This document shows positions 3,570 to 63,449 of a stretch of DNA of 64,000 bases, piece by piece (within the stretch, counting starts at the first letter, position 1; each line of letters begins with the position of its first letter). The notes under the pieces are model-generated. The model did not search any database. It had not been told where the DNA came from and was given only the letters and a program-made list of their open reading frames with translations. Made by a program: the position numbers and the translations under genes. This DNA comes from Thermoplasmata archaeon (lineage in GTDB: Archaea > Thermoplasmatota > Thermoplasmata > Lutacidiplasmatales > UBA184): positions 98,681 to 162,680 of the forward strand of contig JAKAWX010000003.1 in assembly GCA_021816865.1 (NCBI GenBank), written 5' to 3'.

Positions 3570-3571
3570 CG

Positions 3572-6944: not shown

Positions 6945-7009
6945 GGTCCGGGGGCGGGCCGCCGCGACGCCGGGCCCGGTCGGCTCCCTCCGCGCCCCAT
7001 CGGCGCGGG

Positions 7010-8215: not shown

Positions 8216-8369
8216 CGCACCTCCCGGGGGCCCCGAGAGCCCCGCCGGCAGAACCGGCGCCCCGGGAACGGATAACGCGGAGGTTGGGGAGAATCCACTT
8301 CCGCCCGACCGGAGGTCCTCGGGCCGACGGGAGCCCGCCCGGCGCGACCGTCGGCGGTCTTCGGTTCGC

Positions 8370-10560: not shown

Positions 10561-10571
10561 CGACCCCTCCG

Positions 10572-12203
10572 TCAGGGTTCCCGCACGAACTGCTCGATCG
10601 CCGCGACCACCCCGCCGATGAGCCGGGGGTCCGCGCTCTCCTCGGCGTCGTGGATGTGGGCCGAAGGGTCCATGCTCCCGAAGACGAGCGCGGGCAGCGG
10701 GCCGCCTTTCGGCGTCGTGAGCCCGCGAAGCGCGCTCGCGTCGGTCCCGCCGTACTCGCCCCGGACCCCGCGGGCGCCGAACGTCGCCCGAAGGATCCGT
10801 TCGAGCTTCACCACCGCCGGGTGGTCGACGGGGATCGCGTAGCCGGGGCGGCAGCGCGCGGGCGGCGCCACGATCGTCGCGGACGGCGAGATTCGCCCCG
10901 CGTTCGCGCGCGCCTCGGCGAGAGTGCGCGCGAGCCCGTCCTCGAGCTCCATCTCGGGGATGAGGCGGAGGTCGACGGTGAACGTCGCCGCCCCCGGTGC
11001 GGTCGGGTCGACGAGCCCGCGCCGCGAGGCGGTCGCGAGGAGTTCGAGCGCGGCCGGCACCGGGTTGTGCCCGCGGTGCGGGTAGCCCCCGTGGCTCGCG
11101 ACCCCGATCACCTGGAGCGCGAGCGTCCCCGGCGGTACGGAGACCGAGCTCGGGCCGGCGGGCTCGAGGCGGAACGGCGGCGCGACGAGGGGTCGAAGGC
11201 GCTCCGCGAGGTGGTTCAGCTCGACGGCGGGGCCGCCGAACACGAGGGTGACGGCGCGCGCGATCTGGTTCGCCGCGTCCGTCTCGGCGTGGCCCACGAG
11301 CAGGCCGACCCGGCTCGGGTGGAGCGCGACGTCCGTCACATCGAACTGCGTCACCGTAGCCCGACCCGTGATCACGGGCTCGGGGGCGTTGCGGTCGGGC
11401 CAGTCCGGGGACCGGTAGGCGGAGCGCCAGGAACGGGCGGTCGCGTGGAGGTCGACCAGCGATTCCCCGAACGCGACGGACTCGGCGAGGGGAACGGACC
11501 GCCCCGTGGCCGCCTCGAGGAAGGCGATCCCGCTCGAGCCGCCGGTCGCTTCGGGGCTACCGTCCGGGATCAGCGCCACGTCGCCGTTCAGGATCCGCTC
11601 GGGGTCCCCTTCCGCGAGCTTCGCGTCGTGGGCTCGGATCGCTTCGATGCCCCCCTCGCCGCCCGTCTCCTCGTCGCAGCAGGCGAGCAGGCGGACGTTG
11701 CGGACCCGGTCGTCCCTTTCGGCGAGGTGGCGCATCGCGGTGAGGGCGCTCACGATCCCACTGCCGAGGTCGTCGTTCGCGCCGCGAGCGTAGAGGCGGC
11801 CGTCCCGCCGGGCCGTCAGGGTGTGCGGGGGACTCTTCCAGCGGGCGCGCTGTTCGACGGGGACCGGCACGACATCGTAATGCGCGAGGATGAGGACCGT
11901 CTCCGCCGCCCCGACGTCGAGGTCAACGAGGACGTTCGGCCGCGGGATCCCGTGCCACTCGTCGGGACGGTCCCCCGCCACGAGCGGGTCGTAGATCCGG
12001 GTCGACAGTCCGGCCGAGCGTGCGGCGGCTACGATCGCGTCGGCCGCGCGCGGGTAGTTCGGCTTCTCCCAGCGGCCGTGCGCCGGGTCCTCGAGGTTCG
12101 TGGGGGCGATGGCGACCAGCTGGGTGAGGAGCCGGAGCGCGCTCGGGTCTCCCATCGCCGAGGAAGGGTCGAGGGGCGATCGGTCGGAAGACGCCGCCGA
12201 CAT
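10572..12203 (-). CDS. M20-family metallopeptidase/deacylase
   Basis: LILAHYDVVPV...LYARGANDDLGSG...CDEETGGEGG; M20 metal-binding arrangement. Confidence 0.85.
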   Translation of the reverse strand: MSAASSDRSPLDPSSAMGDPSALRLLTQLVAIAPTNLEDPAHGRWEKPNYPRAADAIVAAARSAGLSTRIYDPLVAGDRPDEWHGIPRPNVLVDLDVGAAETVLILAHYDVVPVPVEQRARWKSPPHTLTARRDGRLYARGANDDLGSGIVSALTAMRHLAERDDRVRNVRLLACCDEETGGEGGIEAIRAHDAKLAEGDPERILNGDVALIPDGSPEATGGSSGIAFLEAATGRSVPLAESVAFGESLVDLHATARSWRSAYRSPDWPDRNAPEPVITGRATVTQFDVTDVALHPSRVGLLVGHAETDAANQIARAVTLVFGGPAVELNHLAERLRPLVAPPFRLEPAGPSSVSVPPGTLALQVIGVASHGGYPHRGHNPVPAALELLATASRRGLVDPTAPGAATFTVDLRLIPEMELEDGLARTLAEARANAGRISPSATIVAPPARCRPGYAIPVDHPAVVKLERILRATFGARGVRGEYGGTDASALRGLTTPKGGPLPALVFGSMDPSAHIHDAEESADPRLIGGVVAAIEQFVREP

Positions 12204-12211
12204 CTCGACCT

Positions 12212-14029
12212 CTAGCGGAACACGAACGTCACGACGAGCGAACTCGTCAGCAGGAGGAGGAAGGTCGCCGGGAACATGTTCGTGAACATCGACAGGGTGT
12301 CGCCGAGCGAGGTCAAAAGGCGTGCGGTGTGACCCGGTCCAAGGACCTTGACCGAGGGAACGTCCCGCACGCCGAAGCGGACCTCGGCCGGGGCGAGGTC
12401 CGCGACCGCCGCCGCGAGGACGTCATGCGCGTCGCGGGCGAGCGCGTCGACCGAGCGTCGCTCGCCGACCGGGTTGATCCCCCCATCGACCTCGTGGACC
12501 ACGTGGTTATCGGTCGTCATCACCTCGGCGACATCGACCACCGTCTCGAGCGAGCGCACGATCGGTTCGCGCAGGCCGACGACGAGGTTGTTGCCGTCGA
12601 TCAGGACGTACCCCGTGGTCGTGCCCCCACCACGGATCGCGAGCGCGCGCATTCCCTGCGGACCGATCCCGTCGCCTCCGATCGAATAGCCGTCGCGGAC
12701 CGCCGCCCCGACCTCGATGGGTCCGTCCCGGGCGGCGGCGGCCGCGGCACGGACGGCGGCCTTCGCGTCCCGGATCATCTTCTCGGCGGGCGGCGTCCCG
12801 TAGACGATGTCGCCTTTCCCTTCGATGTAGGAGTTGTGGGCGTCGACGAGCACGACCTTCGCGACCCCATCGGCGGTCAGGTCGCGCACCAAGCGGTCGG
12901 CCACGCTGAACGCGATGTCGTCGGTCGGCGCGGGCGCCTGCGAGACCGCGACGAACACCGCATCGCCGAGCACCTGGGCCCGGGCGAGGCTGTCAGGGTA
13001 CGGCCGGACGAGAGGGCTCGCGCGGGACGGGGCGGGGGACGAGAGCGAGGCGAAGAGGTCCCGGCTCGCCGAGACGACCCGGGCCACCTCGGACTCGCTC
13101 GGTAGGTCGAGGTCGTGGTCCGAGGGGGTGTGGGGGACGAGGACCGTCCCCGACGCCGGGCCGAGGCCCTCCGCGAGCTTTCGGGGCAGGTCGCTCGCGC
13201 CGAGCGCGGCGAACGGGCCGGGATGGACGGTCGGGAGGGCGACGGTCACCGGGGGCCGGCCCGTTCGTTCGAAGCGGAGGAGGCGCACCGAAAGGTCGGC
13301 CGGGATCGCCGCCTTGAGGAAGAACTCCTCGAGCGACCGCGTCGCCTCCGGGTCCCGGCTCGCGACGTGGTCGAGCAACGGGCGGATCAGGGCCACCCCG
13401 GAGGTCTGGAACTCGCGCCGGAGCGGTCGGTCGGCCGCCCGAACGAGCGCGACCGCGTAGACGAAAGCGAGGGCGAGGATGACGAGAGCGCTCAGCGCCT
13501 CGGGCGCCGTCGGCGGGCGGACCGCAAAGAGCGCCACGAGGTAGAGCGCCGTGGGGAAGAGCGAGATCCCGACCATCCGAGCGTGGCTCGAGCGGGAAAC
13601 GCCGTAGAGCGTGAGATGCCGGAACCAGAACGCCGGGCCGGCAAGAAAGACCCCGAGGAACACGAGGTCGGGGACCGCCGTGGGCCATGCCTGCCATGCT
13701 CCGCGCCAGACGAGCGCGAGCGGCGCCTGGAGCAAGAGCACCGTGAGCGAGAGGAACGCCGAGCGGTGGAACTCGAACCGGCCGCCGAGAGCGCGCGCGA
13801 GCGGCGGAGTGACGACGGCGGCGAGCAGCGAGGGGATCGCGAAGACGAAGAGGAACCCCTCGAGGAACCGGGGAGTGTCCGGAAGCCAGAGGAGGGCGGC
13901 GAGCGCCGCGCTCGCGACCACGATGAGGCCGACCGTGACGGCCGGTGGGGGGGCCCGAAAGAGGAGGTGCCCCCGGCGCACGTCCCGGTGCGCTTCGCCC
14001 GTCACGGTCTCGGTCGGCTCAGGTCCCAC
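12212..14029 (-). CDS. DUF2070 archaeal membrane protein
   Basis: N-terminal multi-TM followed by soluble HPGPF/DAHNSY region characteristic of archaeal DUF2070; start (GTG 14029) chosen because it overlaps the GGGPS stop. Confidence 0.78.
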   Translation of the reverse strand: MGPEPTETVTGEAHRDVRRGHLLFRAPPPAVTVGLIVVASAALAALLWLPDTPRFLEGFLFVFAIPSLLAAVVTPPLARALGGRFEFHRSAFLSLTVLLLQAPLALVWRGAWQAWPTAVPDLVFLGVFLAGPAFWFRHLTLYGVSRSSHARMVGISLFPTALYLVALFAVRPPTAPEALSALVILALAFVYAVALVRAADRPLRREFQTSGVALIRPLLDHVASRDPEATRSLEEFFLKAAIPADLSVRLLRFERTGRPPVTVALPTVHPGPFAALGASDLPRKLAEGLGPASGTVLVPHTPSDHDLDLPSESEVARVVSASRDLFASLSSPAPSRASPLVRPYPDSLARAQVLGDAVFVAVSQAPAPTDDIAFSVADRLVRDLTADGVAKVVLVDAHNSYIEGKGDIVYGTPPAEKMIRDAKAAVRAAAAAARDGPIEVGAAVRDGYSIGGDGIGPQGMRALAIRGGGTTTGYVLIDGNNLVVGLREPIVRSLETVVDVAEVMTTDNHVVHEVDGGINPVGERRSVDALARDAHDVLAAAVADLAPAEVRFGVRDVPSVKVLGPGHTARLLTSLGDTLSMFTNMFPATFLLLLTSSLVVTFVFR

Positions 14030-14786
14030 GGGCGCGACGCACCTCCTCGAGAATCCCGCGGAAGCCGTCCCCGAGGCCCTCGTCCTCGGTGATCGTCCCG
14101 GTGACGAGCACGCTGGCACCCGCGGCCAGGAGCGGCGCGGCGTCCGCCGCGGATCGGATCCCACCGCCGACGACGATCGGGATCTCGATCGCCTTGCGCA
14201 CGGCCGCCAGCATCGGCACGGGGACCGGGGCGGGAGCACCGGAGCCGGCCTCGAGGTAGACGAACCGCATCCCGAGCAGCTGGGCGGCGAGCGCGTACCC
14301 CGCGGCGAGACTGAGGTCGTCCCTCGCCACCGCGTCGACCTCCCCGACCTCACCGACCCGCATCCCGGGGGCGATCACGAGATAGCCGAGGGGGATCGGC
14401 TCGAGGCCCAGCGCTCGCACCGCGGGGGCCGCGCGGGCGTGGGAGCGGATCACGAAGTCGAGGTTCCGGGAATTGAGGAGGCTCATGAAGAGAAGGCCGT
14501 CCGCCTCGGGGGCGAGCGACGCCGGACCCTCGGGGAAGATCACGACCGGCACCTTCACGCTCGACTTCACGGCCTTCGCCGCGGCGCCGACCACCTCCCG
14601 CGAGATCCCGGTCGAGCCTCCGAGGAGGATCAGGTGGCTCCCGAGCGCGACCGCCCCCCGAGCGATGGCGCCCGCCTTCTCGCCCGGTGACTTGTCCGGG
14701 TCGATCAGGGTGAAGTGGAGCGGTCCCCCGCGAAGCTCGTCGGCGAGGTACTGCTCGACCCGTCCCCGGGTCGTCGGGCCGGTCAC
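14019..14786 (-). CDS. Geranylgeranylglyceryl phosphate synthase
   Basis: FTLIDPDKSPGEKA, LLGGSTGI, YLEAGSGAPAPVP, IVVGGGIRSAADA; archaeal GGGP synthase motifs. Confidence 0.95.
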   Translation of the reverse strand: MTGPTTRGRVEQYLADELRGGPLHFTLIDPDKSPGEKAGAIARGAVALGSHLILLGGSTGISREVVGAAAKAVKSSVKVPVVIFPEGPASLAPEADGLLFMSLLNSRNLDFVIRSHARAAPAVRALGLEPIPLGYLVIAPGMRVGEVGEVDAVARDDLSLAAGYALAAQLLGMRFVYLEAGSGAPAPVPVPMLAAVRKAIEIPIVVGGGIRSAADAAPLLAAGASVLVTGTITEDEGLGDGFRGILEEVRRARGT

Positions 14787-15631
14787 CGGAACGCCACCGC
14801 CAGGAAGGCGAACAACGCCACCGTCATCGCGAGCTTGCTCATCGTCTGCCCGTGGTGGAGCCGTCCGGGGAGGTGCCGCACGGACTCACCGAAGATCAGG
14901 TCGGCGGCCCCGACCAGCACGACGTACATAATCCCCGCGACCGACGCGACCGGAACGAACCAAACCAGCGGCACGACGCTCAGCACGACGGCCGCCCCGA
15001 CGCTCGCCCGCGCGACGCGGGCGCTGAACGGTAGGCCGTGCGTCTTCGGCAGCGTCGTCCGACCGACGTCGCCCGAGACGTCCTCCATATCCTTGATCAC
15101 CTCGCGGCTCAGCGTGGCGAGGAACGCCATTCCGGCGAACGGAAGCAGGATCGCGGCGTTCGAGGCGGCGGCGCCTCCGTAGAGGAACACCATCGCCGTC
15201 AAGAACGCGACCACGAGGTTCCCGACGAATCCGAGCGACTTCAGCCACAACTCGTAGCCGAGAAGGGCCAGGACGGCGACGGCCAGGATCGCTCCCACGA
15301 GCGGCGCGACCGCCACCACGGGCAACGCGACCATGAGCCCCGAGAGGAACAGCACGACGACCAGCGCCCGGGCCGACTCGAACGGGACCTCCCCCGTCAC
15401 GAGCGGGCGGTCGGGATGGTTCGTCCGGTCGATCTCGAGGTCGAGCACGTCGTTGAGGACGTTGCCCGCCGCCGTGACGCACGCGGTCGAGAACCCCGCG
15501 AGCAGCATGAGAGCCCAGAACCCCGCCGAGGGAACGAGCCCCGACCCGCGGGCGACGAGCCCCCCCACGAGCGTCCCGGCGAACGAAACGGCCACGTTCG
15601 CCGGCCTCACCAGCCGGACGGCGGGGTGCAC
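14783..15631 (-). CDS. UbiA-family prenyltransferase, likely digeranylgeranylglyceryl phosphate synthase
   Basis: NVLNDVLDLEIDRTNHPDRPL and SREVIKDMEDVSGD aspartate-rich motifs; multi-TM; overlaps GGGPS gene; GTG start inferred. Confidence 0.9.
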   Translation of the reverse strand: MHPAVRLVRPANVAVSFAGTLVGGLVARGSGLVPSAGFWALMLLAGFSTACVTAAGNVLNDVLDLEIDRTNHPDRPLVTGEVPFESARALVVVLFLSGLMVALPVVAVAPLVGAILAVAVLALLGYELWLKSLGFVGNLVVAFLTAMVFLYGGAAASNAAILLPFAGMAFLATLSREVIKDMEDVSGDVGRTTLPKTHGLPFSARVARASVGAAVVLSVVPLVWFVPVASVAGIMYVVLVGAADLIFGESVRHLPGRLHHGQTMSKLAMTVALFAFLAVAFR

Positions 15632-51011: not shown

Positions 51012-51754
51012 GGGAGGCCGTCCGCGAGGTCGAGCGCCCGCCTCGGGGAGGTCCGGACGCACGTGAAGATCGGGGTCTCGAGGGCCGTGTACCGGCTCGC
51101 TTCCGACGGCCGGAGGTCGTTCACGAGGTCGAGGAACTCGTCCGGGCGGTCGGCCTCGAACGCGAGGATGAATTCCATGTCGTCGAGACCGAACGAGTAA
51201 CCGGTGTGGATGTCGACACGGGGGTACTTGTGGCCGATGCGGAAGTGCTCGCCCATGATGCGGCGGCGCTCCTCGAACGGAAGGCCGTACCACTCCCGCT
51301 TCTTCACGAACGGGTAGACGAAGAGGTACGGCCGATCGCCGGGGCGACGCCGGGTGCCGGTCCCCTCGCCTCCGTGCGCGTGCGCGCCGAGGTACTCCGA
51401 CTTTCGGGCCATCCCGAGGTAGGAGTAGGGGGTCGCGAGGAACGGCCCGAGCCCGGTGCCGAGGACGCGGGCGTGAAGCGTCTGGACCGGCTCGAGCGCC
51501 GGCGCGACCGACCAGACGAGGAAGTCGACCCCGGCCTTCAGCCCGACCGTCGAGTAGGTGCCTACGAGGACGTTCTCGGGGGGGTGCTCGAGCACTTCGA
51601 CGAGCGCGGCCTTTCCCGCCTCCCGCTCCGGTCGGGGGAGGCGCCGCCACCCCGGCTCCACGCGGTAGAAGGTGTACTTGACGACGTCCCGGGGCTCCTC
51701 CGTCCCGGGAGCGTCATCGGCCGCGCCCGGTCGGGACGGGGTCGGGTCGGTCAC
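51008..51754 (-). CDS. hemQ: Chlorite-dismutase-family heme protein (HemQ/ChdC-like)
   Basis: YPFVKKREWYGLPFEERRRIMGEHFRIGHKYPRVDIHTGYSFGLDDMEFILAFE. Confidence 0.88.
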   Translation of the reverse strand: MTDPTPSRPGAADDAPGTEEPRDVVKYTFYRVEPGWRRLPRPEREAGKAALVEVLEHPPENVLVGTYSTVGLKAGVDFLVWSVAPALEPVQTLHARVLGTGLGPFLATPYSYLGMARKSEYLGAHAHGGEGTGTRRRPGDRPYLFVYPFVKKREWYGLPFEERRRIMGEHFRIGHKYPRVDIHTGYSFGLDDMEFILAFEADRPDEFLDLVNDLRPSEASRYTALETPIFTCVRTSPRRALDLADGLP

Positions 51755-52770
51755 CGGTCCTCCCGGAGCCAGCGGACCGCGTCGCGCGCGAAGTAGGTGA
51801 CGATGAGGTCGGCGCCGGCTCGGCGGATAGCGACGAGCGTCTCGCGGGCGGCCTTCTCGAGGTCGACGATCCCGCGGGCGGCGGCGGCGTGGATCGTCGC
51901 GTACTCGCCGCTTACCTGGTACGCCGCGAGCGGGAGGTCGAAGCGGTCCCGCGCCCTCGCGAGCAGGTCGAGGCTCGTGAGGGCGGGCTTCACCATCAGG
52001 ATGTCCGCTCCCTCGGCGGCGTCGAGCGCCATCTCCCGGAGGGCTTCGCGGCCGTTGCGGGCGTCCATCTGGTAGCCGGCACGGTCACCGAATTCGGGGG
52101 CCGACCCCTCGATCTCCCGGAACGGCCCGTAGAAGGCCGAGGCGTGCTTGGTCGAGTACGCCAGGACGCCGGTCCCCTCGTAGCCGGCATCGTCGAGGGC
52201 GTGCCGGATCGCACCGACCTGGCCGTCCATCATGGCGCTCGGGGCCACGACGTCGGCGCCCGCGCGCGCGTGCGCGAGCGCGACGCGCTGAAGCCGTTCG
52301 ACGGACGCGTCGTTCGCCACATCGCCGTCCTTCACGACCCCGCAATGGCCGTGGGTCGTGTAGGCGCACAGGCAGACGTCGGTCGCCACCACCAGGTCCG
52401 GAGCCGCCTTCTTGAGCGCCCGAACCGCCTCGGGGACGAGGCCGGTGTCGGACCACGCGTCGCTTCCCTCGGCATCCTTCGTGCGGGCGACCCCGAAGAG
52501 CAGGACGGACCGCACCCCCTCCGAGGCGAGCGTGCGGCCGAAGGGGCCGATCCGTCCGAGCGGGTACCTCGCAACGCCCGGGCACGACGGGACCGGGGTC
52601 GGGCCCCCTCCGCCCGGTCGGACGAACAGCGGGAGCACCCATCGGTGGCTCTCGAGATCGGTCTCGGCGATCCAGTCCCGAAGGGCGGCCGTGCGACGCA
52701 TGCGTCGAGGCCGGACGACGGCCGAGGGGCGCGCGGGCCGGCCACCGTGCTCGATGACTCGGGAGTTCAT
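51751..52770 (-). CDS. hemB: Porphobilinogen synthase (delta-aminolevulinic acid dehydratase)
   Basis: DVCLCAYTTHGHCGVV, VAPSAMMDGQVGAIR, STKHASAFYGPFRE, MVKPALTSLD. Confidence 0.96.
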   Translation of the reverse strand: MNSRVIEHGGRPARPSAVVRPRRMRRTAALRDWIAETDLESHRWVLPLFVRPGGGGPTPVPSCPGVARYPLGRIGPFGRTLASEGVRSVLLFGVARTKDAEGSDAWSDTGLVPEAVRALKKAAPDLVVATDVCLCAYTTHGHCGVVKDGDVANDASVERLQRVALAHARAGADVVAPSAMMDGQVGAIRHALDDAGYEGTGVLAYSTKHASAFYGPFREIEGSAPEFGDRAGYQMDARNGREALREMALDAAEGADILMVKPALTSLDLLARARDRFDLPLAAYQVSGEYATIHAAAARGIVDLEKAARETLVAIRRAGADLIVTYFARDAVRWLREDR

Positions 52771-53513
52771 TCGATCCCCGCGGGGAGAAGTGGGCGCGTA
52801 AAGCGTTGTGCCGTCAGCGAGGGCGTGACGGAGATGCGGACAAAGCCGGCGGCCCGTGCGGCTCGGGCCGAGCGCGGTCCGATCACGACCAGCCGGACGC
52901 GGCGGGCGAGCCGGGCGAGCGAGGGCGGGTCGAGGGCGGCGACCAGCGCGCGGAGGGCGGAGGGGCTGCTCGCAACGATCAGGTCCGCGCGCGCGAGACG
53001 GGCGCGTTCCGCCCGCCCGAACCGGGCCCGCAGCCTCGTCCGATAGACGACGACGTCCGTTACCGTGTGGCCGCGAGCGCGAAGGGCGCGAGCCAGGGAC
53101 GGCCCCGCCCGGTCGGAGCGGAACCGCAAGATCCGCCGCCGCCCCCGGCCGATTGCCCGGGCGACGGCCGCCCCACCGAGCCCCGGCGGCTCCCGCACGT
53201 TCGTGACCCCGACCGACCGCAGCGTCGCGGCGGTTGCGGGTCCGCTCGACCAGTACCGCACGCGGCGGGCCCGTCGGCCCTCCTCGCGCCACGGGACCAC
53301 GCCGGCAAGGACGCCGGATCGGCTCGTGACCACGACGTCGTCGACCGCGCCGAGCGCCGAGAGGGGCGGGCGCCACGCGGACGGGGGGAGCGGTACCGGT
53401 TCGACCACCACGAGGCGAGTGACCTTGGCCCCCCCGACGCGAAGCGCTTCGACGATCGGCTCGAGGGCGTTCGGTCCGGTGAGCAGCACGACCCGCACGC
53501 GACCGTGAGGCAC
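52767..53513 (-). CDS. hemD: Uroporphyrinogen-III synthase
   Basis: Divergent HemD-like sequence (DVVVTSRSGV..., FRSDRAG, VVVYRTR, VASSPSALRAL) between hemB and hemC. Confidence 0.85.
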   Translation of the reverse strand: MPHGRVRVVLLTGPNALEPIVEALRVGGAKVTRLVVVEPVPLPPSAWRPPLSALGAVDDVVVTSRSGVLAGVVPWREEGRRARRVRYWSSGPATAATLRSVGVTNVREPPGLGGAAVARAIGRGRRRILRFRSDRAGPSLARALRARGHTVTDVVVYRTRLRARFGRAERARLARADLIVASSPSALRALVAALDPPSLARLARRVRLVVIGPRSARAARAAGFVRISVTPSLTAQRFTRPLLPAGIE

Positions 53514-53522
53514 GAGCTCCTC

Positions 53523-54428
53523 CTACCGGGTCTGGGCCAGGATCTCGTCCCCCCCGGCGGAGAGCACGGCGCGGCCCAACGAGCGGCCGATCGCCTCCGC
53601 GTTCGAGGTCGGTCCCCGGCGGCTGGCGCGAACGCTCCGTCGACCGTCCGGCGCGAGGACCTCGCCCACGAGCGAGAGCCTCGCTCCCCGAACGGTCCCG
53701 AGGGCGGCGAGCGGAGACCGACAGTCCCCGCCGAGCTCGGCGGAGAACGACCGTTCGGCGAGGACGGCCGCGCGGGTGGCAGGGTGGTCGAGGGCCGCGG
53801 CGACCCGTTCGGACGGACCGTCCCCCTCCCGAACGGCCACGACCAGCGCTCCCTGGCCGGGCGCCGGCAGGTACTCCCGGGTGGGAAGGACCCGACCGAT
53901 CGACCGGGTTCGGTGGAGGCGGGCGAGACCGGCGACGGCCAGCACGATCGCATCGACGCTCCCGTCCCGGACGAGCCCGAGGCGCGTTCCGACGTTGCCG
54001 CGCACTTCCTCCACGACGAGGTCGGGGCGGCGTCGGAGGAGCTGGGCCCGGCGCCGCACGCTGCTCGAGCCGACACGCGCGCCTTTCGGGAGCCGGCCGG
54101 GCGCCACTCCGCGGCGGACGACGAGGCAGTCGCGGGGGTCGGCCCGACGTACGAAGGCCGCGAGGCGGAGGCCGGAAGGGAGGATCGACTCCACGTCCTT
54201 GGCGCTGTGCACCGCGAGGTCGATCTCGCCGCGTGCGAGCGCGAGGTCGATCGCATCGGTGAAGTCGGGCGAGCCGCCCGCCGCGGTCTCCCGGTCCCCG
54301 CTCGTCACGATCGGGACCGGGCGGAACCGCATCTCGGGGAACCGCCGAACGAGTCGACGCACCACCTCGTCCGTCTGGAGGAGCGCGAGCGGGCTGCGAC
54401 GCGTCCCGATCCTCACCCGCTCGGTCAC
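53523..54428 (-). CDS. hemC: Porphobilinogen deaminase (hydroxymethylbilane synthase)
   Basis: RIGTRRSPLALLQTDEV, LAVHSAKDVES, GSSSVRRRAQLLRRRPDL, LPAPGQGALVV, ELGGDCRSPLAA. Confidence 0.96.
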   Translation of the reverse strand: MTERVRIGTRRSPLALLQTDEVVRRLVRRFPEMRFRPVPIVTSGDRETAAGGSPDFTDAIDLALARGEIDLAVHSAKDVESILPSGLRLAAFVRRADPRDCLVVRRGVAPGRLPKGARVGSSSVRRRAQLLRRRPDLVVEEVRGNVGTRLGLVRDGSVDAIVLAVAGLARLHRTRSIGRVLPTREYLPAPGQGALVVAVREGDGPSERVAAALDHPATRAAVLAERSFSAELGGDCRSPLAALGTVRGARLSLVGEVLAPDGRRSVRASRRGPTSNAEAIGRSLGRAVLSAGGDEILAQTR

Positions 54429-55702
54429 GGGTCGAGCGTCGCGGGATCGAACAGCTCGAGGGCGAACCGCCGCAGCCGTTCCCCCTCCGGACCGGGCGGC
54501 AACGAGCGCAGCCGCTCGGTGGGCGAGAGGAGGAGTCGCGCGACCAAGCGGCGCGTCAGGCGGTCGACCGCCACCTCCTGTTCGGCCGTAAGCGTCCCGA
54601 GGAACGGGCGGGCGCGCTCCAGCTCGGAGCGCCGGAGGGTCTCGATCGCGCTCCTCAACACGTCGATCCACGATTCGAGGGCCCGACGTTCGAACTCGCG
54701 GTAGTGCCGGTCGACCGCCTCGTCCAGACGGACGTCGGAGTCAACGTCCGTGGGTCCCGGGTGGCGGTGGGCGCCCAGTTCTCCAAGGTCGACCAGCTGG
54801 ACGTTCGGGGCTCCCCGGACCGCGGGGTCGATGTTTCGGGGCACTCCGAGGTCGATCAGGACGAGCGGCCGGGAGGAGGGAAGGTCGCCCCCATCGAGGC
54901 ACCGCTCGCCGCTCTTCGCGGCCGCGATGACGCCGTCGGCGACGGCGAGCTCATCGGCGAGCTCCGGGACTCGGACGGCCCGGGCACCGGTCCCGCGGAG
55001 GAACCGGTCGTCCGGGACTCGTTCGCGATAGACGACCGTGACACGGGCGGAGCTCGCGAGGCACTCGGTGACCTGGCGGCCCACTGTCCCGGCACCGATG
55101 ACGACGACCCGGGGGAACGGCCGGGCGACTCGCTCGAGGAGGGCCGTCGCGGCGATCGCCGCGATCGACTGCGACGACGGCACCGAAGGCGCGAGCTCGT
55201 CCGCGGTCGCCGCCGCCGACTCGAGGAGCTCGCGAAGGAGGGGCCGGGGGTGTCGGCTCCAGGTCCGGCGCGCGGCCGACCGTACCTGGTCCCGCACTTC
55301 ACGTTCGCCGACCGCGAGCGACCGGCGGCCCGCCGCGACCTCGAACAGGTGATGAGCGGCCTCGCGGCCGGAGCGAATCCTCCACGCCGTCGGATCCCCC
55401 GGAAGTCGTCCCAGCCACCGGTCCGCTTCCTTCGGGTCGCAAGTGACCCCGTAGAGCTCTACTCGGTGGCACGTGACGAGCAGCGCCACCTCCCCGGTCG
55501 GGGCCGGGTCGTCGAACCAACCGTCGACCCGTTGGGCACTGACGGCCCTCGCCACGGCTTCGAGCTCGTCGATCGAGGTCGTGTCCAGGCTGAGCTCGAG
55601 ATTGAACAGACGGAGCCGGGTCGGCGCCAAAGGGACGGTGACCGCGGACGCCGGCGTCGGATGAGGGACCGCGGCCACCCCATCGACGGGAGCAGAGACC
55701 AC
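54425..55702 (-). CDS. hemA: Glutamyl-tRNA reductase
   Basis: LVTCHRVELYG, LFEVAAGRRSLAVGEREVRDQVR, VVIGAGTVGRQV, LIDLGVPRNIDP; GTG start inferred. Confidence 0.9.
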   Translation of the reverse strand: MVSAPVDGVAAVPHPTPASAVTVPLAPTRLRLFNLELSLDTTSIDELEAVARAVSAQRVDGWFDDPAPTGEVALLVTCHRVELYGVTCDPKEADRWLGRLPGDPTAWRIRSGREAAHHLFEVAAGRRSLAVGEREVRDQVRSAARRTWSRHPRPLLRELLESAAATADELAPSVPSSQSIAAIAATALLERVARPFPRVVVIGAGTVGRQVTECLASSARVTVVYRERVPDDRFLRGTGARAVRVPELADELAVADGVIAAAKSGERCLDGGDLPSSRPLVLIDLGVPRNIDPAVRGAPNVQLVDLGELGAHRHPGPTDVDSDVRLDEAVDRHYREFERRALESWIDVLRSAIETLRRSELERARPFLGTLTAEQEVAVDRLTRRLVARLLLSPTERLRSLPPGPEGERLRRFALELFDPATLDP

Positions 55703-55951
55703 GGGCCCTCGACCGGCAGGGAACGCCCGCCCGACTTTAAGTGTCGAGGTACGAACGACGAAACCTCGTGCCCGGGGTGGGCCGCCGGGAACCTGGGGGC
55801 CGACCGGTCCGAGGCTCCGTATTCCGCCTTCCCCGCCGGGGTTCCTTCCCTCGCCACCGGAGCGAAAACACCCCTCGCCTCTACCTCCACGGCCCGGCGG
55901 CCCAACTTCGGGAACCCTCTTACTTTCCGAGAGCATGGACATGAGACGGCG

Positions 55952-57202
55952 ATGTCGGAGCCGGCCGCGCCGCGATCCCCGAACGCCCCGCCCGGGACTC
56001 CCCCGTCTCCGTCGCCCCGGGTCGCCCCGACAGGGAGAGCGCGGACGGCTCACGGGTTGCCGTTCTTCACCGCGGTCGGGTCGGCGCTGGTGATGCTGCT
56101 CCTCGTGCTGGCGATCGTGCTCGCCCCCTTCCTCGGGCCCCCCGGCGGCGCCCCAGGCTCGGGGGACCTACTTTCGTTCACGGAGGCGAGGGGCATCGCC
56201 GACCGGCTCCTCGGGGGCATCGGGAGCGTCCCGTGGAACCTTCTGGACGCCGGTGGAGTGCTTTCCTCTACGGTCCTGACCTTGCCTTCGAGCTTCGCCG
56301 TGCTCGAAAATGCCACGCTGGGAGGGCTTTCGTGCAGCACGGTCCCGGGTCCCACCAACCTCTCGGTACCGGGGAGCAACGCGAGCCGAAGCGACGGAAT
56401 CGCACCGATCTGGCTGTTCACGTACGGGGAGGCTTCCGCTTTCGCCGAGGTCGCGGTCGTCGGCGGCGTCGCACATCTCTTGCTCGACTACAGCGGACCT
56501 TGCGGGTCCTTGCTCGCGGGATCGGAACGGACGGTGCCCCCGCAAGCGATCGACAGCACCCGGGCCGCGAGAGATGCGGCTCCCTTCGTCACGCCGTATC
56601 TCCGGCTGCATCCGTACGCCAACGAAGTCATCAGCCTCTTCGGGGGGTTCAACTCTTCCGCGAACCTGTCGAGTCCAGCCACCTGGTCGATCCTCCTCAC
56701 GACCTGCCCGCTCTCCTCGAGCGGCCCGGCATCGGGGTCGGTGGCCTACGCCAGCCTGAACGCGACCTCCGGCGCGCCGCTCGGCAACTCGACCCTCGAC
56801 CAGACCTCGTGCCCGGGCGCTCCCCTGCTGGCTTCGGCGCTCTCCTTCGGTTCCCCGGTGACCGTCCCCTCGGGAAACCTCACGACCGTCTCGTTCGCGG
56901 TCACGTCCGCCGCCGACGGAGTCCGCTGGGCGAACCTCTCGGCCCAGCTCCAGAACAGCGTCGGTGCGACGGTCTCTTCGGGGTGGAACCTTACGGCCGT
57001 CACGGCCGACGGGCGAACGATCTCGACGTACAACGTGGCGACAGGACTCTGGTCGAGCGGAGGCACCCAGCCGATCGAGGTCGGGGACTCCCTGGTGCTG
57101 GTGACCCTGATCGGCCTGGTGAGCGGGCCGGTCGGATTGCAGGGATTCCTCATCCTCAACGGGGTCGGGGGATTCGGCGGGTCGATCGCGCTGTTCCTTT
57201 GA
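55952..57202 (+). CDS. Membrane-anchored secreted protein of unknown function, N-glycosylation-sequon rich
   Basis: N-terminal TM FFTAVGSALVMLLLVLAIVLAPFL; many NXS/T sequons; C-terminal hydrophobic segment. Confidence 0.75.
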   Translation: MSEPAAPRSPNAPPGTPPSPSPRVAPTGRARTAHGLPFFTAVGSALVMLLLVLAIVLAPFLGPPGGAPGSGDLLSFTEARGIADRLLGGIGSVPWNLLDAGGVLSSTVLTLPSSFAVLENATLGGLSCSTVPGPTNLSVPGSNASRSDGIAPIWLFTYGEASAFAEVAVVGGVAHLLLDYSGPCGSLLAGSERTVPPQAIDSTRAARDAAPFVTPYLRLHPYANEVISLFGGFNSSANLSSPATWSILLTTCPLSSSGPASGSVAYASLNATSGAPLGNSTLDQTSCPGAPLLASALSFGSPVTVPSGNLTTVSFAVTSAADGVRWANLSAQLQNSVGATVSSGWNLTAVTADGRTISTYNVATGLWSSGGTQPIEVGDSLVLVTLIGLVSGPVGLQGFLILNGVGGFGGSIALFL

Positions 57203-57649: not shown

Positions 57650-58648
57650 ATGGGGATCCCAGACCTAGCGTTTCCGCTCCTGGCCTCGTCCGCGGTCGCG
57701 GCGACCGTGGGAATCGCGCTCTATGCGCTCTACGCCCGATGCTATCTGGCCGTTCCCCCAAACCGGGCCCTTGTCCTCTACGGGCGGCGGGCCCCGGCGC
57801 GCCGCCGCGACCTCGTGGGCCGGGCCGAGGGGATCGAAGTGCGTTCGCCGCGCGTCGTGGTCGGTGGCGGAGCGTTCGTGGCGCCCTGGGAAAAGGGAGT
57901 GGGCCACCTCTCCCTCGACCCGGTGGCCGTGGACGTCCCCGTACGCACCGTGCACGCCCTCGAGGGGATCCACGCCACCGGCTGGGAGGCCCGCCTCGCG
58001 ATCGAAGCGAAGATACCCGCCGAGCCCGCGCTCCTCGCGACCGCGGCCGAGAACTTGCTCGGCCGCAGCGAGGACGAGGTCCGCGCGATCGTCCGACGGG
58101 CGGTCGAAGACGTGGTGCCGGGACTGCTCGCCCGCTTAGGACCGGGGGACGGCGAGCCGGACTGGGATCATCTCGCCGCCGAGGTCGAGGCGTCGGTCGC
58201 CGCGGACCTGGTCGGGTGGGGGCTTATCGTCCGGCGGCTCAGCTTCACCCAGCTCCACCGCATCCTCCCCGCCGAGCCCGCGTCGGCGAGCGGGCCCGCG
58301 AAGACGGTCCCGGTCCTCCCCTCGACGCCCGGTCCGAGGGAGCTCGCGGCGGCCGTGGGCCGGCTCGAGGCCCGGCTCGTCCGGGCCGAGCGCAGCCTCG
58401 GGCTCGTCGGGGCCGAGGTCCTGCGCCTGCGCCAGGAGGCGCCCGGCGCGTTCGATGGGATCCCGCGGCCGTCCGTCCTCGACCTTCCCCTCGGGTACGG
58501 GATTCCGGTGGACCTCGGAGGGACGGAGGGGACCTTCGTCTCCGATCACGATTCGATGGGGGGCGAGCCTTCGCTCCGACCCCGCCCGGCACCGATCGGT
58601 GCCGGACCGGGGGAGGGAGGGCGCGGGCCGCGACCCCTGTTGGATTGA
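57650..58648 (+). CDS. SPFH/flotillin-like membrane protein
   Basis: N-terminal TM then YLAVPPNRALVLYGRR, VPVRTVHALEGIHATGWEARLAIEAKIP; coiled C-terminus. Confidence 0.7.
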   Translation: MGIPDLAFPLLASSAVAATVGIALYALYARCYLAVPPNRALVLYGRRAPARRRDLVGRAEGIEVRSPRVVVGGGAFVAPWEKGVGHLSLDPVAVDVPVRTVHALEGIHATGWEARLAIEAKIPAEPALLATAAENLLGRSEDEVRAIVRRAVEDVVPGLLARLGPGDGEPDWDHLAAEVEASVAADLVGWGLIVRRLSFTQLHRILPAEPASASGPAKTVPVLPSTPGPRELAAAVGRLEARLVRAERSLGLVGAEVLRLRQEAPGAFDGIPRPSVLDLPLGYGIPVDLGGTEGTFVSDHDSMGGEPSLRPRPAPIGAGPGEGGRGPRPLLD

Positions 58649-58673
58649 ACCGAGCAAGGAGAGAACGAGAACC

Positions 58674-59693
58674 ATGTGTCCAGCAGCGATCTTGGGCGAC
58701 CGAGCGTGCGGAAAGACGACCTTCCTGGGACTGCTGTACGCGGCCCAGGTAAAGTACGGAACGCGGGTCATCGACTCGTTCCGGTTTCACGCGCCGCTCG
58801 CATCGCTCCGGTTGATGAGCCAGGTCTACGAGGGAATGAAGGACGCCCGCTTCCCGGGCGCGACGCTCAAGGACGAGATGACCGAGATCGGGTTCGTCTT
58901 CGGCTACAGGAAGCCGATCGCCGGCCGCCTGCCGGCGTCGCTCAAGGACAAGAACTGGGTGAATCCGTTCGCGAAGCTCTCGTTCGCGGCCTACGATGTC
59001 TCGGGCGAGGACGTCCAGGAGTTCATCGAAACGGGGGTCGCCGCGAGCCCGATCATCCAGCAGCTCCTGAAGAGCCACGTCGTCGTGATCCTGGTCGACT
59101 GCAGCAAGATGACGACCGAGATCGATTCCCCGATCTTCCGGCAGATGCTGAAGTACGACAGCGAGGTCGCGTCGCTGCTCGTCTCGCTGCAGACCTACAA
59201 GAAGCAGGAGTTCTCGCGGATGAAGACGCAGGGCTTGAGCGTCGGCAACCCCGTGATCTACCCCGCGATCGTGCTGTCGAAGTTCGACAGCGTCCGGGAC
59301 GAGGTCCTCGTCAAGCTGGGCCTCCACCGCGGCGTGCCGAACGGCGACCAGAAGCGCAAGCGCAAGGAGTACGCGGAAGCCCTCCTGCGGGTCTTCATGC
59401 CGCAGACGCTCAGCCAGATCCGGGGCGGGAAGGTCGCCGGGGTCAACTTCGACCAAGCGGCGTACTTCTTCAGCTGGGTCCGGACCGAGACCGCGGAAGC
59501 CGGCATGCAGCCGGTCGGCGCGCCGCGGATCGTCCGCAAGGGGTTCTCGGCGGACGGCGGGGCGGAGCCGGACTTCTCCTACGACGACTACGTCGCGTTC
59601 ATCGAGCACTTCCGAGATGTGGCGAACAAGGTCCCGGACGAGATCGTCGAGCAGACGACCCTCCAGACCCCTCCCACGGCCGCGACGGCCTAG
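58674..59693 (+). CDS. P-loop GTPase/ATPase, catalytically intact paralogue (GTPase A)
   Basis: Walker A GDRACGKTTF, DXXG-like FAAYDVSGED, NKXD-like VLSKFDS. Confidence 0.75.
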   Translation: MCPAAILGDRACGKTTFLGLLYAAQVKYGTRVIDSFRFHAPLASLRLMSQVYEGMKDARFPGATLKDEMTEIGFVFGYRKPIAGRLPASLKDKNWVNPFAKLSFAAYDVSGEDVQEFIETGVAASPIIQQLLKSHVVVILVDCSKMTTEIDSPIFRQMLKYDSEVASLLVSLQTYKKQEFSRMKTQGLSVGNPVIYPAIVLSKFDSVRDEVLVKLGLHRGVPNGDQKRKRKEYAEALLRVFMPQTLSQIRGGKVAGVNFDQAAYFFSWVRTETAEAGMQPVGAPRIVRKGFSADGGAEPDFSYDDYVAFIEHFRDVANKVPDEIVEQTTLQTPPTAATA

Positions 59694-59742
59694 GCCGCGG
59701 GCCGCGGGCGGTCACGGACGACGCACTACGGAGGGAACCACG

Positions 59743-60555
59743 ATGGACGACGAGACGACGCTCGCGCTCGAGCACTGGATCTACGGCGCGAGCCACGAGA
59801 AAGGGTACGGGGTCAAGGCGGAGTCGCACGGATTGAACGGGCCGCTCTACATGCGCTACCTCGAGAACCACCTGACCCCGGTGCGGGTCGAGAAGACGGC
59901 GAACGGGGGAACGCTCATCGACGCGCGGATGGTCCACCCCGCGCCGGCGAACGACGAGGTGCTCCTCTCGATCCTCGGGCGCGGGGTCGCGGACGAGTAC
60001 AATCGACCGACGATCGCGAACCACACGGTCGTGATCCCGGCGAGCGCCCTGCGCGCGGGCCGGCTGACCCTCGCCGACGTCGAGGCCGCTGCGATCGACT
60101 ACGACCGTCGGTACCCGAAGGCGGCGGGCCGGATCGACGCGATCCCGGTGCGCCTGAGGGGCCCCGAGGCGCCCCGCGACCCCGCCGGCGTCGGGATCCG
60201 CCGCCTCATCACGAAGGCGGCGGTCGACACGCTCGCGAGCCGATTCCTGGGCGACCGGCAGGGCCGCATGCTCGTGCTCTGCCGCGGGTCCACGAACCAG
60301 TACCGCAACGAGCTCCTCTACTGTCTCGTCGAGCTCCTCCACGCCGGCGGAGAGATCCCGCTCTTCCCCGCGATCAGCGATGCGCCGACGCTGAGCGCCA
60401 TGAATCACTTCCGGCTCGCGATCTCCTCCCGCGGGGTCCGGGCCGACGGTTCGTGGACGCTCCTCGACGCGAGCATCGACGAGCCCGCGCTGCCGCCCGT
60501 TCGGGGGAAGAACCCCCTCTACGGTAGGATCGCGGAGGCGTTCGCGGCCGCGTAA
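59743..60555 (+). CDS. GTPase-associated protein (GAP1-N-like) of unknown function
   Basis: ALEHWIYGASHEKGYGVKAESHGL ... GVADEYNRPTIANHTVVIPASAL; between two related GTPase genes. Confidence 0.6.
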   Translation: MDDETTLALEHWIYGASHEKGYGVKAESHGLNGPLYMRYLENHLTPVRVEKTANGGTLIDARMVHPAPANDEVLLSILGRGVADEYNRPTIANHTVVIPASALRAGRLTLADVEAAAIDYDRRYPKAAGRIDAIPVRLRGPEAPRDPAGVGIRRLITKAAVDTLASRFLGDRQGRMLVLCRGSTNQYRNELLYCLVELLHAGGEIPLFPAISDAPTLSAMNHFRLAISSRGVRADGSWTLLDASIDEPALPPVRGKNPLYGRIAEAFAAA

Positions 60556-60619
60556 CGGCCCGACGGGAGATCGTTCGGAGAGCCGGGCCCGCATCGTCGT
60601 CGCGCACGGAGGGTCCGAC

Positions 60620-61558
60620 GTGGGGAGCGCGCTCGTGGTCGGCGACCCCGGCGCGGGGCTCACGACCTTCGTGGGACTCCTCTACACCGCCGAGCTTCGC
60701 TTGGGGACCCAGGTCGAGGACCGGTTCCGCTTCTCGGCCGAACGGGAGACGATCCGTCAGCTCGAGGGGATCTACGGGGAGCTCGTCGCCGGGCGCTTTC
60801 CCGAACGGGACGTGAACTGGGAGACGCACCCCGTGTCGTTCACGCTCGGCTTCCGGGGCGGACGCCTGAGGCGGGGGGGACGGGGCGGAGGGGTGCGCGA
60901 CGAGGGGTTCGATACCGTGCGGGTCCAGGTCGGTGGCATCTCGGCGCAGGAGATCTCGGAGCTCGCCGACCGGGACGCGATCCTCGAGGATTCGACTCGG
61001 CGACTCCTGCGGAGCCCGGTGGTCCTGCCGCTGATCGACGCGTCGCGGCTGGAGGACGACCCGGAAGACGCGACGCGCCGGATCCGGGCGCGCTACGACC
61101 GGCTGCTCGCCACGACGCTCGAGGTCATCGGTCGCTTCCTCGCCGCCGAGCCCGACCGTCGGTCCCGCACGATGCACCCGTTGTTCGTGGTGACGAAGTT
61201 CGACCGGTGCCCTCCGGCCACCCGGTCCGCGCTGGAGGTCCCCGACGGCGATCCGGCCACGTGGTCGGCCGACGCCCGCGCCCGACTCGGCGATCGGATG
61301 CTCGCCCGTTTCTTCCCCCGGGCGGCCTCGTCGCTCGCCGCGCGGTCGACGGGGGGGAAGCTCCGCGTGGCCCGCCCGAAGTGGTACTTCAGCAGCCTCG
61401 AAGTGACCTCGGGTCCACAAGGCCCCCGGGTCGTACGACGGTCGCTCGCGCCGTTCGGAGGTTGGGAGCCGGTCTACCCGTTCGAGGAGTACCGCGCCTT
61501 GATCGAGGAGCTCGCGGAGCTCGCCCACCAGCTCCCGGGCCTCGACTTCGGGGAATAG
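60620..61558 (+). CDS. P-loop GTPase-like protein, degenerate paralogue (GTPase B)
   Basis: GDPGAGLTTFVGLLYTAELRLGTQVEDRFRFSAE aligns with GTPase A, but Walker A Lys is Leu and the DXXG Asp is lost (VRVQVGGISAQEI); VVTKFDR retained; GTG start. Confidence 0.75.
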   Translation: MGSALVVGDPGAGLTTFVGLLYTAELRLGTQVEDRFRFSAERETIRQLEGIYGELVAGRFPERDVNWETHPVSFTLGFRGGRLRRGGRGGGVRDEGFDTVRVQVGGISAQEISELADRDAILEDSTRRLLRSPVVLPLIDASRLEDDPEDATRRIRARYDRLLATTLEVIGRFLAAEPDRRSRTMHPLFVVTKFDRCPPATRSALEVPDGDPATWSADARARLGDRMLARFFPRAASSLAARSTGGKLRVARPKWYFSSLEVTSGPQGPRVVRRSLAPFGGWEPVYPFEEYRALIEELAELAHQLPGLDFGE

Positions 61559-61651: not shown

Positions 61652-63208
61652 TCAACGCGGGGGCTCGGCCCGGAAACTGAACCCCTGCCGGTGGTCCCCC
61701 TCTCGGACGACGATCCAGCCCGGGAGCTCCCAGCGCCCGTCCTCGGGGTGCCACTGTGGGTCCCCCTGAGCGAGCTCTCCCAGCTCCGCCTCGAGGTACT
61801 CGTGGTCCGTGGAGACTTCCGGCACGAGCGCGCCTTTTTGGAGAAGGGAGACGAGAAGCGGAAGGCCGGTGGGGCGACCCCGCCACTTCACCGACAGGAA
61901 CGACTTCCGTACGCTGCCGTCGAGGAGGAGCAGGGTCCTTAGGGCGGCGTAGGCGGGCCGGCTTCGAGCGTCCTTCGGAGGGGAATCGAGGCGTCGCCGC
62001 TCCCGCCGGTGTTCTTCGAGGAGACCCCGCCAGGTCTCCGGCTCGACCTCTTCCGCACCCCAGATCGAGCTCGCGTCGACCTCTTCGGGCGGGGGCTCCG
62101 ACGGGGTCCCCCCTTCGGACGTCCGATCGTCGCCCGACCTTCGGGTCCGTCCCGACGCGGTGCGGGCGGCCCGACCGATGACGAGGCTGTACGCGAGGGC
62201 CGCCCCCGTCGCCCCCGCGGCCGGAGGGCGCAGAACGACCTCGTCGCAGTCCGGATATCGGTTCGGGTGGAGCAACACGAACGGACCGGTCTCCGGCGCG
62301 CTGAACAGGAGAGCGAGCGAGTCGTTGATGGTGGGCACTTGACGCCGCACCGCGAGCTCGCTCAGGCGGACGAGCGGCACGGACGGTTCGGCCGGACGCG
62401 GGCGGGCGGCCAGGTCGTCCAGGAGTGCCTGGGCGACCTCCGCCAGGATCTGCTGGTGCGCGGTGCGTCCGAGGGACGCCTCCGCGGCGCGATCGCGCGT
62501 GAGGCCGCGTTTGAGCTTCTGGCGCAAGGGGCCCGCGCGGGCCGCTTCCTCGCGCACGGCCCAGAGGCGAAAGTTGATCCAAGGCTGGAGGCGACCGCCG
62601 CCGACCCGTGAGTCCGCGAACAGTCCGGCCCAACGCTCGGCCATCTTCGAGCTCCACGCCGGATCGTTCGGACTGTCCCGGAACCAGCGGAGCACCTGCT
62701 CGCGCAGGATCGCCCCCGCGCTGAGGGGGTCGTCGACCTCGTTCTTGATCCGTACCATGAGCGCGGCCGTCCGCCGGACGATCGCGGTCAGCGTCGTCGC
62801 GTCCGGTTCCGCGGCCTCGACCAGTCCCGTGAGCCGGAGGGTGTTGAGCAGTTCGAGATCGAAGCGCTCGGTCGGGTCGGTCTTCAGGAACTGCGCTACC
62901 ACCGGGGAGGTGACCGAGCCGCCGATCTCCCGCGTCGCGTCGTTCCCGTACGCGATCGGTTTCGGGTCCGGCGAGCCGCCGGACCCTGCCTCGGCCGGGG
63001 GGTCCGGTCCCTTTCGGTCGATGACCACCTTGGGCACCGAGCCGTCGGGGCGATCGCCGCGCTCCCCGGCGTCGTCGCTCCCGAAAAGACCAAGGCGCAC
63101 CAGTTCGCGTTGCCGATCGCTACGCTCGTGCGCGATGCGCGCCCGCTCGGCCGCCCTCCGCGCTTCGCGGTCCTTCCAGATGCGGTCGGCGTCCGACTCT
63201 TCTGCCAT
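61652..63208 (-). CDS. Unknown ~518-aa protein convergent with the GTPase operon
   Basis: Long ORF, chosen start MAEESDADRIWKDREARRAAERARIAHE; no recognisable catalytic motif. Confidence 0.65.
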   Translation of the reverse strand: MAEESDADRIWKDREARRAAERARIAHERSDRQRELVRLGLFGSDDAGERGDRPDGSVPKVVIDRKGPDPPAEAGSGGSPDPKPIAYGNDATREIGGSVTSPVVAQFLKTDPTERFDLELLNTLRLTGLVEAAEPDATTLTAIVRRTAALMVRIKNEVDDPLSAGAILREQVLRWFRDSPNDPAWSSKMAERWAGLFADSRVGGGRLQPWINFRLWAVREEAARAGPLRQKLKRGLTRDRAAEASLGRTAHQQILAEVAQALLDDLAARPRPAEPSVPLVRLSELAVRRQVPTINDSLALLFSAPETGPFVLLHPNRYPDCDEVVLRPPAAGATGAALAYSLVIGRAARTASGRTRRSGDDRTSEGGTPSEPPPEEVDASSIWGAEEVEPETWRGLLEEHRRERRRLDSPPKDARSRPAYAALRTLLLLDGSVRKSFLSVKWRGRPTGLPLLVSLLQKGALVPEVSTDHEYLEAELGELAQGDPQWHPEDGRWELPGWIVVREGDHRQGFSFRAEPPR

Positions 63209-63449
63209 CGACAGGGGCGAGGCCGTTCCCCATCGAGAAAAAGTGGAGCCTCGGAGCATTAACGGTTTCGGAACTGCGCGGGGGAGCCCGTGCCTCGGGC
63301 CGAGCCCCGGTCGCCGCGCTCGGGACGGCGACCGGGCGCCGGTGCCTTCGACCTAGGGAAGCAGCGACAGCGCACGCGGCCGCTCCGGCCCCCCCAGAAC
63401 CCGAGTAGGACCATGACGTTCGGCGCACCCTTTTCTACCCTGGCGGCCG

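Follow-up and report, generated by a model that had tools for sequence, protein, structure and literature searches.

What kind of system is encoded toward one end of a 64,000-nucleotide stretch of DNA from a Thermoplasmata archaeon (contig JAKAWX010000003.1; the whole stretch is referred to below as the window)? There, a gene for a flotillin-like SPFH protein is followed by genes for two P-loop proteins, here called GTPase A and GTPase B. A reading made from the sequence alone (the sequence-only reading) had likened the protein encoded between them to the GTPase-associated protein GAP1 and proposed a double-GTPase conflict or signaling module. We find that these four genes and a convergent fifth gene, absent from the earlier list of four, form a set related to the DO-GTPase/GAP1-N2 systems. 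Since the profile homology of the core parts has clean controls, and in view of the co-occurrence of the genes and the division of motifs between A and B, we interpret the set as a five-part GTP switch. The fuller proposal, to which we give about an even chance of being right, is that the DO-GTPase/GAP1 systems have a compact branch in archaea, represented by this set, in which a membrane-associated, asymmetric GTP switch of five genes is controlled by a longin-type regulator. The five genes are as follows.

57650..58648, plus strand: SPFH/Band-7 (flotillin-like) protein, 332 amino acids, with a single N-terminal transmembrane segment and matches to Band_7 and FloT.
58674..59693, plus strand: GTPase A, 339 amino acids, related to DO-GTPases by Pfam, motifs and hhalign; P-loop GDRACGKTT, Walker B DVSGED, and SKFD.
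59743..60555, plus strand: GAP1-like protein, 270 amino acids, with a GAP1-N2-like part (longin-like in the structural model) and a GAP1-M-like part, lacking GAP1-C; Arg 88/His 94 motif.
60620..61558, plus strand, GTG start: GTPase B, 312 amino acids, putative pseudo-GTPase paralog; GDPGAGLTT (P-loop Lys missing), no DxxGE, TKFD retained.
61652..63259, minus strand: convergent helical protein, 535 amino acids, of a new family; assigned to the set as its fifth member by co-occurrence, neighborhoods, a fusion in genome G002 and a helical model.

Gene content and distribution of the set

The first four genes follow one another in the order SPFH, GTPase A, GAP1-like, GTPase B, just as the sequence-only reading had it. 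They are co-oriented, with every open reading frame present and intergenic gaps of about 25–64 bp. The corrected starts are ATG at 58674 for GTPase A, ATG at 59743 for the GAP1-like gene and GTG at 60620 for GTPase B; a longer GTPase A frame from 58455 overlaps the SPFH gene, and the ATG at 58674 is preferred. The end of the fifth gene lies 93 bp past the GTPase B gene.

How closely are these genes tied to one another? A search of 101 genomes detected the GAP1-like gene in 19 of the 61 genomes of the genus (including the 1.5 Mb genome that carries the window) and in two more distant ones. The fifth gene occurs in exactly the same 19 of the 61. The chance of two 19-of-61 sets coinciding is 3e-16, a figure weakened by the relatedness of the genomes. 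The SPFH gene is present in 18 of the 19 and in no other member of the genus, the match in G002 being a remnant fused to the fifth gene. Most congeners keep the gene order of the window; genus g36 shows a relocated fifth gene, now upstream of the SPFH gene and still close by. A single clade does not explain the co-occurrence, as the operon-bearing genomes are not grouped on an EF-1alpha tree, though many of its branches are weakly supported; in that tree G002, which has the operon, is sister to G001, which lacks it. Nor is this an ordinary housekeeping set, because it is missing from nearly complete congeners. As far as the available flanks reach, none of the genes that border the operon in the window was seen close to it in other genomes. 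Taken together, the five genes behave as one mobile unit.

Beyond the genus, the closest named homologs of the GAP1-like gene come almost exclusively from metagenome-assembled genomes of Thermoplasmata. The GTPase A profile matches 60 of 400 genomes of this class, distributed over 15 genera. Of 20 neighborhoods retrieved from these genomes, 17 have a GAP1-like gene immediately downstream of GTPase A. The exceptions are a locus truncated at the end of its contig, a locus in which no GAP1-like gene was detected, and L121, which holds a canonical GAP1 system. A divergent second GTPase is usually encoded near GTPase A, and the fifth family also lies beside GTPase A and the GAP1-like gene in families f25 and f26. 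The conserved co-occurrence expected under the sequence-only reading is therefore present.

Upstream of the operon, the window contains a heme-biosynthesis cluster (51751-56053, minus strand; open reading frames resembling hemB, hemD, hemC and hemA, named by sequence only). Other genomes show no linkage of this cluster with the operon, again as far as the available flanks reach.

The two GTPases and the GAP1-like protein

The two P-loop proteins are paralogs, as had been supposed: the profile of each detects the other. For GTPase A the best Pfam families are DO-GTPase2 (E = 4.4e-5; 23.7 bits, below the curated cut-off of 27) and then DO-GTPase1, and a DO-GTPase2 match is found in all 19 homologs; the Pfam match of GTPase B is to DO-GTPase1, at E = 0.006. 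In profile comparisons with hhalign, A and B align to genuine archaeal DO-GTPases with probabilities of 98.9% and 97.5%, respectively, whereas unrelated controls reach at most 0.2%. A PDB sequence search with the GTPase A profile gave chance-level matches only.

The catalytic motifs divide between the two proteins, in copies from several families. DxxGE (Walker B with Glu) is present in 25 of 25 GTPase A entries, and the GxxxxGK(S/T) P-loop in all those where it is readable. None of the 17 readable GTPase B entries has DxxGE, and in 11 of 18 the P-loop Lys is replaced by Leu, Arg or Val, including all family f1 copies; Met and Gln are also seen at this position in the genus alignment. A TKxD-type motif is retained in GTPase B. 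Because the split between A and B entries is clean, we read A as the working switch and B as its pseudo-GTPase partner. The earlier idea of a double GTPase thus stands as far as family membership goes, while B, whose window copy is devoid of P-loop Lys and Walker B, appears to be a pseudo-GTPase. Phylogenetically, the GTPase B proteins of f1 and f25 form one clade (support 0.96), and those of f22 and f3 are placed elsewhere on long branches. The A and B copies in the window both begin at the P-loop and have neither a transmembrane segment nor an N-terminal zinc ribbon; sequence-based library scans revealed no roadblock domain match in either.

The proteins of the set also differ in the strength of selection. 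Between seven congeners, with GTPase A and EF-1alpha compared in the same genomes, the median amino-acid identity is 95.3% for GTPase A, 93.7% for EF-1alpha, 78.5% for the GAP1-like protein, 57% for GTPase B and 46% for the SPFH protein, and 55% for the fifth protein (three pairs only). The median nonsynonymous divergence (dN) is 0.030 for GTPase A versus 0.037 for EF-1alpha. Recent transfer does not account for the low divergence of GTPase A, whose synonymous divergence (pS, 0.39) is comparable to, and not below, that of EF-1alpha (0.33). GTPase A is therefore as constrained as a core translation factor even though the operon is optional and the neighboring operon genes diverge quickly.

Is the protein encoded between the GTPases a relative of GAP1? 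No member of its family reaches a Pfam cut-off, the window protein has no single-sequence Pfam match, and a GAP1-N2 match appears in only two of 20 diverse members (best E = 0.17). Scans of Pfam, PADLOC and NCBIfam returned nothing usable for this protein, a PDB sequence search with the family profile produced chance-level matches only, and tblastn against plasmids, with either this protein or genuine GAP1 as the query, found no match. Because the Pfam cut-off was not reached, the family was compared profile to profile with reference GAP1-N2 proteins, namely those adjoining DO-GTPases, gathered from the same class. It aligned to GAP1-N2 plus GAP1-M with a probability of 93% (E = 3.4e-7, 219 columns), or 86% with a more diverse alignment. 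The controls stayed low: 0.1% for unrelated family profiles and for the reversed alignment, and no more than 0.6% in 40 column shuffles. The alignment to GAP1-N2 runs on colinearly through the M region, for which there is no direct Pfam match. GAP1-C is missing, as the window protein stops after the M-like part (270 residues versus approximately 550–800 in genuine archaeal GAP1). At the profile level, then, homology to GAP1-N2 and GAP1-M is well supported. The block WIYGASHEKGYG...RPTIANHTVVIP, from which the likeness to GAP1 had been drawn, is present in the best-conserved part of the family. Accordingly, the GAP1 assignment holds for the N2 and M parts and fails for GAP1-C, and the interpretation of the locus as a GAP1/double-GTPase module is supported.

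Both the GAP1-like family and genuine GAP1-N2 proteins have, at the same place, an Arg followed a few residues on by a His (Arg 88 and His 94 in the window). Arg 88 is invariant in the genus family and is possibly an Arg finger for GTPase-activating protein (GAP) activity. The structural model of the GAP1-like protein (mean predicted local distance difference test, pLDDT, 78; predicted template modeling score, pTM, 0.82) shows the longin order of elements at residues 6–123, followed by an alpha/beta part. A Foldseek search of the PDB returned a single strong match, the type VI secretion regulator TagF (E = 3.4e-5; template modeling score, TM-score, 0.45), whose similarity to longin domains has been published (PMC3325213). 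The further matches are weak (E ≥ 0.006), and many of them are longin domains from the C9orf72:SMCR8, Lst4, SEA and GATOR1 complexes and a Loki roadblock-longin protein. The original GAP1 paper does not mention longin. The modeled fold makes a longin identity of the N-terminal domain a lead rather than proof.

The SPFH protein, the helical protein and variant loci

The flotillin-like character of the first protein was borne out by its orthologs. Band_7 is found in 13 of 18 (best E = 8.2e-11); the window copy matches Band_7 at E = 0.0013 (19.2 bits) and NCBIfam FloT at E = 1.6e-10 over residues 16–200, both below the curated cut-offs. Its transmembrane segment, at residues 6–24, is the only one among the proteins of the set.

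For the fifth protein, scans of Pfam, PADLOC and NCBIfam found no match, a PDB profile search gave chance-level matches only, and Foldseek found nothing similar to its helical model (pLDDT 80, pTM 0.51). An adaptor role seems more likely for it than an enzymatic one. In G002 (L037, 11405-13474, minus strand) a single open frame encodes it together with the C-terminal portion of SPFH, the transmembrane segment not included, and no separate SPFH gene lies at the customary position; this fusion is the reason for linking the helical protein to SPFH. The fifth protein of L072 (G004) has a long N-terminus similar to that in L037. Elsewhere, the fifth protein is joined to a cyclase-like part and DUF835 (L118) or preceded by a zinc-ribbon-like stretch (L120).

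Variation extends to the other components. The GAP1-like protein is fused to a HerA-type ATPase in L040 and to an AAA ATPase with a winged helix in L039 and L118. In L118 (G286, 4996-14999), kinase, PP2C and vWA genes accompany the protein with the cyclase-like part, the fifth-family part and DUF835 beside GTPase A; the trio of vWA, PP2C and kinase is one theme described for GAP1-N2 systems (PMC7159879). L121 (G128, 1960-9128, minus strand) encodes a transmembrane DO-GTPase, GAP1 (556 amino acids), a helical protein and a second, larger transmembrane DO-GTPase, which amounts to a full archaeal GAP1-N2 system; a divergent Cdc48-like AAA gene lies nearby. In L041 (G062, 3887-11586), the GAP1-like gene, GTPase A and GTPase B are followed by a protein kinase with Arm/HEAT repeats. 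Recombinase-like and TnpB-like genes lie upstream, and it is possible that a mobile element carries this set. L110, L111 and L112 (f22) share a conserved protein of about 430 residues, helical and then apparently a beta-sandwich, that is convergent to the GAP1-like gene and occupies the position of the fifth protein. A profile comparison detects no homology between it and the fifth protein (hhalign, 0.5%).

Possible functions of the set

The DO-GTPase/GAP1-N2 GTPase-centric systems were described by Kaur et al. in 2020 (PMC7159879; PF19993, PF19975, PF20013 and PF20014). Like 38% of known DO-GTPase systems, the set has two paralogous GTPases of the family, which lie side by side in the window as well as across the genus and in most of the other families examined. 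It also shares the GAP1-like gene directly downstream of a GTPase gene, the Walker B Glu of GTPase A, the GAP1-N2 and GAP1-M profile homology, the Arg/His motif, mobile neighborhoods and, in some relatives, the vWA, PP2C and kinase genes. In contrast, library scans of the five genes in the window found no GAP1-C, FNIII component or recognizable effector; its GTPases lack the zinc ribbon or transmembrane segments frequent, though not universal, in the family; one of them appears to be a pseudoenzyme; and its partners are a new helical protein and SPFH. The absence of GAP1-C, FNIII and effector components, all of which were looked for, is the reason to class the set as a variant of DO-GTPase/GAP1 systems and not among the canonical members. 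The sequence-only reading regarded an archaeal, SPFH-anchored version as new. DO-GTPase systems had already been reported in 'a few archaea' (PMC7159879), and the novelty is confined to the compact, SPFH-linked form.

How might such a set work? In the proposed mechanism, SPFH would hold the complex at a membrane microdomain and GTPase A would be the working switch, cycling between GTP and GDP. GTPase B, having kept the G-domain and lost the catalytic motifs, would probably be a regulatory pseudoenzyme paired asymmetrically with A. The GAP1-like protein, with its GAP1-N2-like longin fold and GAP1-M part, would bind the pair and set its nucleotide state, in the simplest form acting as a GAP via Arg 88 in a loop of the longin-like domain. 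The helical protein would connect the switch to SPFH or to an output and pass its state on. Several observations weigh against this proposal. The lack of GAP1-C and FNIII components limits what can be inferred from canonical systems. Membrane anchoring is not a general feature, as only family f1 has SPFH with the set. GTPase B of f25 and f3 keeps the P-loop Lys and may still bind nucleotide there. Arg 88 could be structural, and the Foldseek likeness to eukaryotic longin GAPs is weak (E = 0.006 or worse).

A somewhat unlikely alternative assigns the regulation differently: the GAP1-like protein would be an exchange factor or a static scaffold, and GTPase B would control hydrolysis by A. Longin/DENN modules can indeed be guanine nucleotide exchange factors (PMC3521125), and the usual retention of GTPase B beside A despite its lost motifs fits a regulatory pseudoenzyme. 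However, an invariant loop Arg in both GAP1-N2 and the GAP1-like family is easier to read, from sequence rather than from a complex, as a finger.

An antiviral or conflict system, as the sequence-only reading suggested, appears unlikely. The GAP1-like and helical proteins would sense the invader, the GTPases would set a threshold, and SPFH or the helical protein would act on the membrane. The patchy distribution, differing even between the close relatives G002 and G001, and the changing neighbors are as in mobile defense loci; the vWA, PP2C and kinase, cyclase or ATPase partners of relatives also resemble GAP1-N2 themes (PMC7159879), the family being predicted in conflict systems. Yet Pfam and NCBIfam scans recognized no effector domain in any of the five proteins, leaving the suggested conflict role of the window operon without a recognizable effector, and there is no PADLOC match for the set, no survey having been aimed at neighboring defense genes. 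Moreover, the EF-1alpha-like constraint on GTPase A is unlike that of arms-race genes. Given the lack of a recognizable effector and this constraint, we favor a role in signaling or membrane/envelope stress over suicidal defense, though the patchy distribution still leaves some weight to the conflict reading. For one DO-GTPase protein, a role in membrane-related stress has been predicted (PMC11237479). Quite unlikely is a cell-organization module (polarity, division or membrane domain assembly) resembling MglA/MglB or flotillin assemblies and having no link to stress or defense. Many congeners with nearly complete genomes lack the set, which is therefore dispensable for basic cell organization. 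In favor of such a module, membranes are organized by SPFH scaffolds and by A-like GTPases that occur in conserved, membrane-associated pairs, and GTPase A evolves very slowly.

Comparison with other regulators bears on the proposed longin-type GTP switch. TagF, the best fold match of the GAP1-like model, likewise works together with a PP2C phosphatase and a kinase (PMC5995506). At the sequence level, however, the GAP1-like protein does not match the TagF family; type VI secretion genes were not seen beside the operon, and the TM-score is modest. MglA/MglB, with its roadblock GAP, also places a prokaryotic small GTPase beside a roadblock/longin-class regulator; the window set differs in GTPase family, in having two GTPases and an SPFH partner, and in regulator architecture. 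Longin domains have been proposed to derive from prokaryotic MglB-type GAPs (PMC3521125). With the eukaryotic longin-DENN GAPs (FLCN-FNIP, NPRL2-NPRL3 and C9orf72-SMCR8) the set shares a possible longin fold with an invariant Arg, an asymmetric GTPase pair and a membrane scaffold. In that group, SMCR8 reaches the active site of ARF1 with an Arg finger of its longin domain, and the action of FLCN and NPRL2 on Rag GTPases has been modeled on it (PMC8213707). Here, in contrast, the GTPases are of the DO type with no roadblock match, and there is one regulator instead of a longin heterodimer. It is conceivable, if doubtful, that GAP1-N is a longin domain and that a common ancestry unites TagF, the DO-GTPase/GAP1 systems and the longin-DENN GAPs that act on Rag/Arf GTPases in eukaryotes. 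The operon would then be the counterpart, in a non-Asgard archaeon, of a Rag-type asymmetric GTPase pair under a longin Arg-finger GAP on a membrane scaffold.

For the poorly understood DO-GTPase/GAP1 systems, the set offers a small form that is free of recognizable effectors and allows the core switch to be studied by itself. It also provides a concrete hypothesis on GAP1-N, that of a longin-type GTPase regulator, with a single residue to mutate. A 'double' system can apparently pair a working GTPase with a pseudoenzyme, as seen in several families of one archaeal class. If the longin link is true, longin control of asymmetric GTPase pairs, best known in eukaryotes, would have a prokaryotic counterpart outside the Asgard archaea.

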